In this document: positions 29,939 through 36,155 of the stretch, piece by piece | Position numbering within the stretch: position 1 is the first letter of the stretch | Layout: each line of letters opens with the position of its first letter | Source: Verrucomicrobiia bacterium | Lineage (GTDB): Bacteria > Verrucomicrobiota > Verrucomicrobiia > Palsa-1439 | Reading direction: 5' to 3' | Assembly (NCBI GenBank): GCA_022072455.1 | Contig: JAJVHY010000023.1 | Coordinates: 1-64,000, forward strand | DNA length: 64,000 nt | Translations under genes and position numbers: made by a program | The notes under the pieces: generated by a model | The model's input: the letters and a program-made list of their open reading frames with translations, nothing else | Told to the model about the DNA's origin: nothing | Databases searched by the model: none

Positions 29939-32110
29939 ATGGAAGCCGTCGCTGAAAAAGATAAAACGCAGACCACTGCGAAAAGTCGTTCTGATGTGAA
30001 CCGCAAGGTCACACTCGAACGGACGCGCAACATCGGCATCTGCGCGCACATTGACGCCGGCAAGACGACGACGACCGAGCGCGTGCTCTATTATACCGGT
30101 AAGGTCTACAAGATCGGTGAAGTGCACGAAGGCACCGCCACCATGGACTGGATGGAGCAGGAGCAGGAGCGGGGGATTACAATCACCAGCGCGGCAACGA
30201 CCTGTTTTTGGCGCGACCATCGCATCAACATCATTGATACACCTGGTCATGTGGATTTTACTGTCGAAGTTGAGCGCAGTTTGCGCGTGCTTGATGGCGC
30301 CTGCGCCGTGTTCTGTGCGGTGGGTGGTGTCGAGCCGCAATCCGAAACCGTGTGGCGCCAAGCGAACAAGTACAAAGTTCCGCGCATTGCATTCGTTAAC
30401 AAGATGGACCGGACGGGTGCTGATTTTGAAGCGGCGGTGGCCCAGATGCGCGAGCGGTTGGCAGCGAATGCCATACCGATTCAGTTGCCGATTGGCAAAG
30501 AGGCAGGTTTCAAGGGGATTATCGATTTGGTTCGAATGCAGGCTCACATCTGGACGGGAGAAGAGCTGGGCGCGAAATTCGACATAGCTGACATTCCATC
30601 CGACTTGCTCGAAGCGGCGAAATCAGCCCACAACAAACTCGTTGAGGCCGTTGCGGACAAAGATGAAGCGACGGGTAACCTTTATCTGGAGGGCAAAGAA
30701 ATTTCGCCCGACGCTTTGCAGGCCGGTATTCGGCGTTGCGTCATTTCGAACACGATCGTGCCGGTGATTTGTGGCGCGGCGTTCAAGAACAAGGGTGTTC
30801 AACCCTTGCTCGATGCAGTCATCAACTATCTGCCGTCGCCAGTTGATATTGAGCATGTGATCGGAACGAATCCCGACACGAAAGCTGAAGAGAAGCGTGT
30901 CGCCGATGATAATGCGCCTTTTGCGGCGCTGGCATTTAAGCTTTGGACCGACCCGTACGCTGGGCGTTTAATTTTCTTTCGTACCTACTCCGGTAAGGTC
31001 ACCAAGGGTTCGTCAGTATACAATCCGCGCAACAACAAGCGTGAACGAATCGGTCGCTTGCTGGAAATGCATGCGAATCACCGTCAGGAAATCGAGACAG
31101 TTTATTCTGGTGATATTGGCGCGTTGGTTGGGCTCAAGAATGTGACCACCGGTGACACCTTGTGCGACGAAGACCACCCGATTTTACTTGAGTCAATTAC
31201 GTTCCCAGAACCGGTCATTTCCATGGCCATTGAGCCGAACACGAAGGCTGATCGCGACAAGATGGCGACAGCTTTGCAGCGGTTGGCTGAAGAAGATCCG
31301 ACCTTCCGGCTCAATACAGACCAAGAAACCGGTCAGACGATTATCTCGGGGATGGGTGAGTTGCATCTCGACATCATCAAAGACCGGATGTTTCGCGAAT
31401 TTAACGTTGGTGCAACGGCCGGTAAGCCACAGGTTGCCTACCGAGAAACGATTACGAAAGCTTCCGAGGGTGAGGGAAAATTCATCCGCCAGTCGGGGGG
31501 GCGTGGTCAATACGGTCATGCCTGTGTCACAATGGAGCCGGGTGAAGCAGGCTCTGGCGTTGTAGTTGAGGACAAGGTTGTTGGTGGGGCAATTCCCCGC
31601 GAATTTATCGGCGCCGTGGAAGACGGCATTATTGAAGCCGCGCTAACCGGGGTGCTTGCTGGATACCCGATGGTTGACGTCAAAGTAGCGATTGTTGACG
31701 GAACATTTCACGAGGTGGACAGTTCAGAACTCGCTTTCAAGATGGCTGGGATTTTCGCCTTCAAGGATGCCTGCAAAAAAGCCGCGCCGATCATGTTGGA
31801 ACCGATCATGTCGGTGGAAGCCATTACCCCGGAAGAACACATGGGTGATGTTGTTGGCGACTTGAATAGCCGCCGCGGTCGGATTAGCAGTATCGAAGCG
31901 CGTTCCAATTCCCAAATCATTCACGCGCAGGTGCCGCTCGCGCAAATGTTCGGGTACGCCACTGCTCTTCGCTCGTTGAGCAAAGGCCGCGCGAGTTATT
32001 CGATGGAGCCGTTGAACTTCCAGAAAGTGCCGGAGAATATCCTTCAGGAAATTATGGCCAAGAACGCCGGCCAACCGGCGCAGCGGGCGGGTCAGGAAAA
32101 GAAGAAATGA
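29939..32110 (+). CDS. fusA: Translation elongation factor G
   Basis: 723 residues; GTPase that drives tRNA-mRNA translocation. [12 protein letters not shown] (P-loop), [12 protein letters not shown] (normal switch I, unlike EF-Tu here), [26 protein letters not shown]; domain IV has GGRGQYGHA. Start ATG 29939 ([11 protein letters not shown]) is preferred; the frame is open further upstream but overlaps rpsG. The end overlaps rpsJ by four bases (ATGA), fusing the str and S10 segments. Confidence 0.96.
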
Positions 32111-32415
32111 ACAATCAGCGTATCAGAATCCGCCTCAAGGGCTACGATCACCGGTTGCTCGATCAGTCAGCCCACGAGATCGTCGAAACCGCCAAGCGCA
32201 CCGGAGCGAAGGTGGCCGGGCCGATTCCATTGCCAACCGATATTTGGCGGCATACAGTCAATCGTTCGCCGCATTCGGACAAGAAGTCCATGGAGTCATT
32301 TGAAATGCGAACCCACAAGCGGTTGCTGGACATCATTGATCCAACTGCCAAAACCGTGGACGAGCTCAAGAAACTTAACTTGCCGGCGGGCGTGGATATC
32401 ACGATTAAGATTTAG
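32107..32415 (+). CDS. rpsJ: 30S ribosomal protein S10 (NusE)
   Basis: 102 residues; head protein of the 30S subunit and NusG partner. [23 protein letters not shown] and the [11 protein letters not shown] segment are typical. Its ATG overlaps the fusA stop. In E. coli a long S10 leader, target of L4 repression, precedes this gene; here no leader can exist. Confidence 0.97.
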
Positions 32416-33978: not shown

Positions 33979-34815
33979 ATGGGCCTCAAAACTTTCAGAC
34001 CAAGAACGCCATCACTGCGGGGAACGGTATTGCCGGACTTCGCGGAGTTGACAACACACAAACCCGAGCGATCGTTGACGGTTGCGAAACGTCGCACTGG
34101 CGGACGAAACAATCTCGGCCGCGTGACGGCGCGGGGGATTGGCGGCGGGCACAAGCAACGGTACCGTGTCATTGATTTCAAACGCAACAAGCTCGGGATT
34201 CCGGCGGTTGTTGAGAGCATCGAGTATGATCCGAATCGTTCTGCGCGAATCGCCTTGTTGAAGTACGAGGACGGTGAGAAGCGCTACATCATCGCCCCGA
34301 TGGGCTTGACGGTCGGGAGCAAACTGATGAATGGGCCGGACGCTGAGTTGGCGACCGGTAATGCGTTACCGTTGCGAAAGATTTTGCCGGGTCTGCCGAT
34401 TCACAATATTGAATTGCACAAGGGGCGTGGTGGTCAGCTTTGCCGGAGCGCGGCAATGGCGTCGCAGATCATGGGCATTGAGGGTGATTATGCCCTCGTG
34501 AAATTGCCATCGGGCGAAATTCGGCGAATTCACGCAGATTGCTATGCGACGATTGGCCAGGTTGGCAATCCTGATAACATGAATGTGATGCTGGGTAAAG
34601 CGGGGCGGTCGCGGTGGCTCGGAATTCGCGGGATCAGCCGCGGCATGTGCCGCAACCCGGTCGACCACCCGATGGGTGGCGGTCAGGGTAAGAGCAAGGG
34701 TGGCGGCGGGTGGCACCACCCCGTTTCGCCGTGGGGTAAACTCGCCAAGGGTGGCAAATCTCGGCGGAAGAAGAAATACTCTAACGCATTTATCGTGGAG
34801 CGTAGGAAGAAATAA
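33979..34815 (+). CDS. rplB: 50S ribosomal protein L2
   Basis: 278 residues; needed for subunit association and the peptidyl-transferase centre. [39 protein letters not shown], and the C-terminal [17 protein letters not shown] with the conserved His. One-base overlap with rpsS. Confidence 0.97.
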
Positions 34816-35093
34816 TGGGACGTTCCCTCAAAAAAGGCCCGTTTGTTGATGACCACCTCATGGCCAAGGTGGAAAAGATGTCGGCCGGTGAGAAGAAACC
34901 AATTAAAACTTGGTCGCGCCGGTCGGTAATTGTGCCGGATTTTATTGGGCACACCTTTTTGGTGCACAACGGCAAGCAGCACATGCCGGTGTTCGTTACA
35001 GAAAACATGGTCGGTCACAAACTCGGCGAGTTTGCGGCGACGCGGCAGTTCCGGGCACACGGAGCGGCGACTGAGAAAGCCGTCGCGAAGTAG
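34815..35093 (+). CDS. rpsS: 30S ribosomal protein S19
   Basis: 92 residues; forms the S13-S19 head bridge. [55 protein letters not shown]. It is normally followed by rplV; here another gene starts two bases after its stop. Confidence 0.97.
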
Positions 35094-35095
35094 TC

Positions 35096-35809
35096 GTGCA
35101 ATTGGCGCGAGCCAATGCGGTTTTGGGTGTCTTGTTCTTTGTAGTAGCCGGCGGAGTTTGCGGTGCGGATGACGAGTTGCGGCGGGCGCTGGATCAACTC
35201 AGCGCGAGTTATACGACCGTACAACGCCAACTTGTCGAACGCGAGGCGGCTGTACGGACGCTGACTGAAAGCCTGGCGATAGCACGGACGGAAAGTGAGC
35301 TTTTTCAAAAGTTATGGACTGAAGCTCAAGTTCGAGTGCAGACACTCGGGCAGAATATCGCCGGTGCCGACGAAGCTATGCAACAGCGACAGTTTGTGGA
35401 AACACTTCGGGCGTTGTATATCGCGGAAGCCGAACGGCAGCGGTTAACCGAGCGGTTACAGCGGTTAGTGGCCGTGATTGAGTCAAATGGCCAGATTGAC
35501 GCTGAGGTCGAGTTGACCAAGCAGATGCTGGCGGCCATTGAAAAGCCAGTCGCCCCAGCCGGCGGCGGGTCAATCGAAGCAACGCGAGTGTTGGACGTGA
35601 ATCCAAAGCTGCGGTTGGTAATATTGGATTTCGGCGTTCAGCAGGGAGCGCGCATCGGAATGCCGTTGATTGTTTGGCGCGGCAACCGTGGAGTTGCTGA
35701 GTTGCGAATTGTCGAAGTGCGGTCGAAAATTTGCGGTGCATTGGTTGAGAATGTCGAAAACAATATCACGTTGCAAGCGGGTGATGCCGCACGCGTGAGT
35801 AGGAAATAA
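35096..35809 (+). CDS. Exported coiled-coil protein embedded in the S10 cluster
   Basis: A 237-residue, non-ribosomal protein from GTG 35096, two bases after rpsS and ten before rplV. The N-terminus is a signal peptide (about 1-23; hydrophobic VLGVLFFVVAGGV, no convincing lipobox). Residues about 25-150 are predicted coiled coil, with E/Q/R-rich heptads (QRQLVEREAAVRTLTESLA). The C-terminal part (about 160-237: RLVILDFGVQQGARIGMPLIV, VRSKICGALVENVE) resembles the small beta domains of envelope proteins such as MreC. It is likely cotranscribed with ribosomal genes. Function unknown; an envelope or cell-shape role coupled to growth is inference. Confidence 0.8.
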   Translation: MQLARANAVLGVLFFVVAGGVCGADDELRRALDQLSASYTTVQRQLVEREAAVRTLTESLAIARTESELFQKLWTEAQVRVQTLGQNIAGADEAMQQRQFVETLRALYIAEAERQRLTERLQRLVAVIESNGQIDAEVELTKQMLAAIEKPVAPAGGGSIEATRVLDVNPKLRLVILDFGVQQGARIGMPLIVWRGNRGVAELRIVEVRSKICGALVENVENNITLQAGDAARVSRK

Positions 35810-35819
35810 AACCAAATTT

Positions 35820-36155
35820 ATGGAAGTACGAGCGATAACGAAATACGCGCGAATGAGCCCCGCCAAGGTTGGCGAGGTGACACGCATGATTCAGGGCAAG
35901 TCCGCCGCGGACGCGCTTGAGGTGCTCCGTGCGGTGCCGCGCAAATCGGCGCGCATGATCGAAAAGACATTAAAGTCGGCCATAGCGAATGCGACGAACA
36001 ATTTCAAGCTGGCGGCGGATGCCCTCAGTGTGAAAGAGGCGGTGGCCAATGAAGGGCCGCGGTTGAAACGGTTCCAACCCAAAGCGCGCGGCAGTGCGGG
36101 GCCGATCATTAAGCGGACCAGTCACATTCAGATCATTTTGACGGACGGACAATAA
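35820..36155 (+). CDS. rplV: 50S ribosomal protein L22
   Basis: 111 residues; its hairpin reaches into the exit tunnel. Standard MEVRAITKYARMSPAK start (the conserved first helix), KSARMIEKTLKSAIANA, and the loop region FQPKARGSAGPIIKRTSHI. Separated from rpsS by the inserted exported-protein gene. Confidence 0.96.
   Translation: MEVRAITKYARMSPAKVGEVTRMIQGKSAADALEVLRAVPRKSARMIEKTLKSAIANATNNFKLAADALSVKEAVANEGPRLKRFQPKARGSAGPIIKRTSHIQIILTDGQ

Follow-up and report, generated by a model that had tools for sequence, protein, structure and literature searches.

A boxA-like element within the coding sequence of an exported-protein gene in the S10 operon of Verrucomicrobiota

We analysed a 64,000-nt stretch of DNA from a Verrucomicrobiia bacterium (contig JAJVHY010000023.1, hereafter the window), in which a 237-codon open reading frame (ORF), hereafter X, is predicted to encode an exported coiled-coil protein and lies between the ribosomal protein genes rpsS and rplV of the S10 operon. 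The signal-peptide codons of X contain a short sequence matching the core of boxA, the RNA signal that, in ribosomal RNA (rRNA) operons, brings ribosomal protein S10 (NusE), together with NusB, to RNA polymerase. As an element this boxA core is well supported by the sequences compared; its function, like that of the protein, is inferred. We give about an even chance to the reading that the rplV transcription unit ancestrally includes the exported protein X, and that in most lineages with a long form of X the 5' end of the gene serves to load NusB-S10 on the polymerase in the middle of the operon. We found no report of the conserved seat of X, or of a boxA element, in this phylum, in a literature coverage that omits most subscription journals. 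What gives the case its interest, and makes it open to testing, is this boxA core.

A boxA core in the 5' part of X

The heptamer GTTCTTT was present in 22 of the 30 loci that were inspected first, 34-135 nt 3' of rpsS. On the sense strand of these loci it occurred 22 times in the 3.9 kb following rpsS versus once in the 104.7 kb elsewhere, and this lone outside copy was the equivalent site in a gene with an extended N-terminus. Within the window, no other sense-strand GTTCTTT was found between 17.4 and 50.1 kb. The distribution of the core followed the length of X, which is either long or reduced to the signal peptide and the C-terminal domain (short X): 11 of 16 families with long X carried it versus none of 8 with short X (Fisher p 0.002, kinship ignored). 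Within the home family (f1; families, loci and genomes are designated f, L and G), the short X of L022 lacked the core and the nine long members had it. Families f42 and f63, fetched later, and five more f44 loci also carried the element; it was absent from six f23 loci.

The element is read in two frames and the encoded peptides differ, being Leu-Phe-Phe inside the signal peptide in f1 and mostly Ser-Leu after the signal peptide elsewhere. Of 20 families, 8 carried it, whereas 2000 synonymous shuffles gave it in 1.8 families on average and in no more than 5. Among the nine f1 sequences, 43 alignment columns were invariant for the amino acid and only 4 for the codon, and the sole adjacent pair of codon-invariant columns was the TTC TTT of the element. 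The six Ser-Leu families had a constant TCT TTG, with a joint probability of about 1e-10 given local codon usage. Because the codons are fixed, two frames are used and synonymous shuffles fall short, selection acts on the nucleotides of the element and not on the amino acids.

The leader and the spacer of the rrn operon are the bacterial location of boxA, the site bound by NusB-NusE (S10). In the genome of the window (G000), GTTCTTTGANAAYTG was found exactly in the 16S-23S spacer (C8:112491) and with one mismatch in the leader (C8:110369). Allowing up to one mismatch, it had 4 matches in 4.8 Mb, whereas the reversed control had none. Moreover, GTTCTTTGA was present in the rrn leaders of many relatives, and the genome contains a NusB gene. 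The core in the window (GTTCTTT at 35134) fits the heptamer GYTCTTT; the search consensus used for gamma-proteobacterial boxA is GYTCTTTAANA (PMC5725501).

In f3 (Akkermansia-like, an inferred label), GTTCTTT was missing from both the rrn leader and X, and the rrn leaders of L033-L035, L049 and L053 had no recognisable GYTCTTT boxA. Since no GYTCTTT was seen in these leaders, the rRNA antitermination signal of f3 may be different. Upstream of the 16S gene at L045 (G018, f9) the leader core was lost, GTCAGCGAAAATTG standing where f4 relatives have GGTCTTTGAAAATTG, and X of the same genome keeps GTTCTTT. A strict rule by which boxA in the rrn operon and boxA in X occur together was considered and rejected: f3 fits it, but both f9 and f34 break it.

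Position and spread of X

The first-pass annotation had placed the 237-residue ORF between rpsS and rplV, at distances of 2 and 10 nt, and these coordinates were exact: the rpsS stop at 35093 is followed after 2 nt by the GTG of X, and the X stop after 10 nt by the ATG of rplV at 35820. The gene belongs to the tight run fusA-rpsJ-rplC-rplD-rplW-rplB-rpsS-X-rplV-rpsC-rplP (Table 1). Its own genome yielded one strong match to X. Compared with a congener, X gave a nonsynonymous divergence (dN) of 0.32 and a synonymous divergence (dS) of 1.88, and its identity was about 59% versus 86-87% for rpsS and rplV; given these values, X is, at the sequence level, fast-evolving yet under purifying selection.

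Table 1. Features of X and its surroundings
Feature	Position	Strand	Evidence or remark
Gene X, for an exported coiled-coil protein of 237 aa (start codon GTG, stop codon TAA)	35096..35809	+	ORF, homologues, model, selection
boxA core TGTTCTTTG, GTTCTTT at 35134-35140, within signal-peptide codons	35133..35141	+	40 nt past the rpsS stop
Signal peptide region, residues about 4-24, inferred cleavage site	35105..35167	+	Sequence; model helix 4-19
Long helical part / coiled coil, at residues 25-85, 91-130 and 136-149	35168..35545	+	Not part of short X in other families
C-terminal beta domain, residues 160-237, FlgT_C-like fold	35573..35806	+	Retained in every aligned homologue
rpsS (S19), 5' neighbour of X	34815..35093	+	
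rplV (L22), 3' neighbour and lasting partner of X	35820..36155	+	
rpsJ (S10 = NusE, partner of NusB in boxA binding)	32107..32415	+	~2.7 kb 5' of the boxA core, same gene run
X paralogue loci	L163:2260-3036, L164:1823-2650, L165:1884-5360, L166:2235-3005, L167:1856-2662, L168:1659-2441		

A direct search detected X homologues in 42 of 57 relatives, and each of the 30 loci inspected first had X between rpsS and rplV. A profile built from 60 homologues matched 216 of 289 genomes sampled from the phylum, paralogues being among these matches. Inspection of 60 further loci distinguished three states within the home class: long X, with a gap of 700-960 nt between rpsS and rplV; short X, with a gap of about 400 nt (f8, f26 and f12); and no X, where the gap was 9-150 nt (f7 and some of f12) or 148-313 nt (f14). 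In other classes, families f34, f39, f42, f44, f51, f57, f59, f60 and f63 had an X homologue at the junction. No rplV followed rpsS within about 1.5 kb in f30, f35, f36, f40, f41, f46, f48, f54 and f55; the rplV of these nine families was on a different contig, or tens of kb to Mb distant. The ORF directly 5' of rplV in genomes with such a split cluster was an X homologue in 12 cases (hidden Markov model (HMM) E 1e-20 to 5e-7; hhalign 99%), the exceptions being G208, G088, G114, G221 and G224. X is thus bonded to rplV, its lasting partner, and the rpsS side is the loose one. The best reading is that the rplV transcription unit of Verrucomicrobiota has X among its ancestral members. X before rplV may also serve as a marker of the phylum.

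The first-pass annotation had regarded the seat of X as no accident, in what it called one of the most conserved junctions of bacteria. The former view, like that of a genuine exported-protein gene within the S10 operon, is strongly supported; the latter holds less well in this phylum, the S10 cluster being broken exactly there in many other classes. Absence of the gene from relatives together with decay of this copy, proposed as grounds for refutation, was not what the comparison revealed, as relatives keep X. Chance insertion or a decaying copy is ruled out by conservation and purifying selection.

Scanning a genome collection with a narrow alignment returned 16 loci, mostly from metagenome-assembled genomes of Verrucomicrobia, and no viral homologue of X was confirmed. 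The S10 cluster was broken after rpsS at L075-L078, L085-L089, L094-L096, L101, L105, L109 and L110, with L115-L135; in many other classes rplV opens a new cluster elsewhere, usually headed by an X homologue. Paralogues of X, with export signal, coiled coil and FlgT_C-like head, were seen in the vicinity of tgt-yajC-secD and of prfB, and a tandem array held about four of them. Some S19 matches lay in open frames that spanned 119-236 aa, compared with about 92 normally (e.g. G115:C2:38477-38719 and G271:C4:28952-29194), which may be real extensions or merely an open upstream frame. Apart from two tRNAs, Rfam gave no match in the window.

The X of the window starts with GTG and has the weakest Shine-Dalgarno pairing among 18 operon genes; start codon and pairing suggest that it is translated less than its neighbours. 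A weak start is not a general feature, as it holds in the window and fails in f4 relatives, whose X has ATG and a good Shine-Dalgarno sequence. That X would be made in proportion to ribosomes, as had been supposed, is unproven by these sequences. The C/G of X was below that of both flanks in 28 of 30 loci, and at fourfold sites in only 13 of 30; low C/G as a sign of selection against Rho sites was therefore rejected, the effect being mostly one of amino-acid composition.

The protein encoded by X

An AlphaFold2 model of X was built from 60 sequences and had a mean predicted local distance difference test (pLDDT) score of 85. It contained helices at residues 4-19 (signal peptide), 25-85 and 91-130, with a beta domain beginning near residue 160, in agreement with the signal peptide and long coiled coil predicted earlier. 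Modelled alone, the C-terminal domain reached a pLDDT of 91. Its best PDB matches were the C-terminal domain of FlgT, 3w1e and 8z5n (VIA-align Z 12.3, root-mean-square deviation 2.1, 77-79 residues aligned), with the N-terminal beta barrel of F1-ATPase subunits next (Z 10.3-10.7), and Listeria MreC was among the structural matches of the full-length model. As the short forms, including L022 of the home family, retain just the beta domain and the export signal, these are the minimal kept unit. On the best reading, X is an exported periplasmic protein with a FlgT_C-like beta head and a putative role in the envelope; the coiled coil probably oligomerises.

The C-terminal domain had been described as MreC-like. 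A weak resemblance was confirmed and membership was not: the NCBIfam match of window X had E 7.7e-6 and 25 bits against a cut-off of 343, and the fold fits the FlgT C-terminal domain best. Window X was not among the matches of PF04085 (MreC), which hit one of 60 members at E 0.003; one MreC model matched 8 of 60 members, weakly. The true mreC of the genome is at G000:C13:64386, in a canonical mreB-mreC pair apart from X. Likewise, at L031 MreB precedes the true mreC, and X is instead between rpsS and rplV. An MreC orthologue is ruled out by the separate mreBC, the sub-cut-off PF04085 scores and the absence of an mreB neighbour. Fold prediction thus upheld an exported coiled coil with a beta domain, and not an MreC identity. 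PF16538 (FlgT_C) had no match among the proteins of the own genome and matched 6 of 60 X members weakly (best E 3.5e-4, below the Pfam cut-off). The N-terminal and middle domains of FlgT were not seen in the X model, which has only helices and linkers before residue 160.

Possible function of the element

By analogy with rRNA operons, the element would be a site of NusB-S10 binding leading to antitermination. RNA polymerase leaving rpsS would transcribe the start of X, and NusB and free S10 (NusE) would bind the nascent boxA. This binding would modify the polymerase, which would then pass X and the many ribosomal protein genes behind it free of Rho-dependent polarity. A long, poorly translated X would expose the downstream genes to such polarity, from which a boxA placed where X begins would shield them; this protective part is put forward conditionally, because f4 keeps the element despite good starts and the C-poverty of X is mostly compositional. 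We consider possible, at somewhat below even, the further proposal that S10, together with NusB, acts on its own operon during transcription by way of a boxA concealed within the coding sequence of an exported envelope protein, that the essential genes behind rplV are read by modified polymerase, and that X is kept before rplV partly as carrier of this switch.

Several observations weigh against antitermination from X. The window copy has GTTCTTTGTAGTAG in place of the rrn-type GANAAYTG extension and only its 7-8 nt core matches, for which reason we name it a boxA core, or boxA-like, and not a full rrn-type boxA. The long-X lineages f3, f10, f18, f23 and f34 have no core, f34 even though its rrn leader has boxA; f9 has GTTCTTT in X and no core in its sampled rrn leader. 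Genomes with a split cluster mostly lack the core before rplV. As the element is part of a translated frame, NusB-S10 could also be displaced by ribosomes. Finally, the weak translation of X, which would create the polarity problem, is not general, f4 combining good starts with the element, and the low C content of X can largely be put down to its amino acids.

Alternatively, the boxA could serve as a feedback brake as at suhB, free S10 and NusB blocking translation of X and triggering Rho termination, so that surplus S10 lowers expression of the ribosomal protein genes downstream. The element is of identical type, its partner S10 is encoded upstream in this very operon, and boxA-like sites occur 5' of rpsJ in several genera (PMC5725501). 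However, rpsJ itself, lying upstream, would escape such control unless through mRNA decay, and the suhB boxA is in the 5' untranslated region. Because the element of X lies downstream of the start codon, in the coding region, a brake is less likely than antitermination, and we regard it as unlikely. In either case, S10 encoded upstream would act on the remainder of its own operon. It is also unlikely, to much the same degree, that X works as an MreC-like scaffold of the envelope and, through co-expression with ribosomes, ties wall growth to growth rate. An exported coiled coil with a beta domain, weak MreC matches and a conserved seat in the operon would suit such a scaffold; the canonical mreB-mreC elsewhere, the sub-cut-off PF04085, the single beta domain instead of two and the short forms devoid of coiled coil speak against it. 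The link between envelope and growth is a guess, and the boxA-like element would tie X to ribosome supply more concretely than co-transcription alone.

Two other explanations dispense with boxA. The heptamer may be another nucleic-acid signal, such as a pause site, a processing site or an element of an internal promoter driving the rplV genes. X remains before rplV in split clusters, so the region could hold a promoter; yet these clusters, which need one, are mostly without the heptamer, and the rrn leader and spacer element has this very heptamer as its core, which makes this explanation improbable. That the element is a conserved protein motif without a role in RNA draws on the Ser-Leu encoded in most cases outside f1, and in f1 it would be Leu-Phe-Phe. 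This is largely refuted by codons fixed at saturated sites and by one heptamer arising from two frames, and we consider it very improbable. If antitermination from X is true, boxA control from inside a coding sequence would join S10 supply, rRNA-type antitermination and ribosomal protein output, and X offers a clear target for asking why an envelope gene resides in a ribosome operon.

X can be compared with four known systems. Like MreC, it has a membrane-targeted N-terminus, a coiled coil and a beta domain, with weak sequence matches, but it has one beta domain and not two, is not adjacent to mreB and coexists with a true mreC. With FlgT, a flagellar H-ring protein, it shares the PF16538 fold of the C-terminal domain, whereas a coiled coil replaces the N-terminal and middle domains, the context is ribosomal and the sequence falls under the Pfam cut-off. 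The element of X has the core GTTCTTTG, which the rrn leader or spacer of its own genome or of relatives also carries, and is constrained as nucleotides; it differs from the boxA of rRNA operons in lying within protein-coding sequence of a ribosomal protein operon and, in the window copy, in lacking GANAAYTG. The boxA elements of suhB and rpsJ are also carried by mRNA, and in the rpsJ cases NusE/S10 likewise comes from the same operon (PMC5725501). These precede the start codon of the regulated gene, whereas the element of X lies 3' of rpsJ, in the frame of an exported protein.
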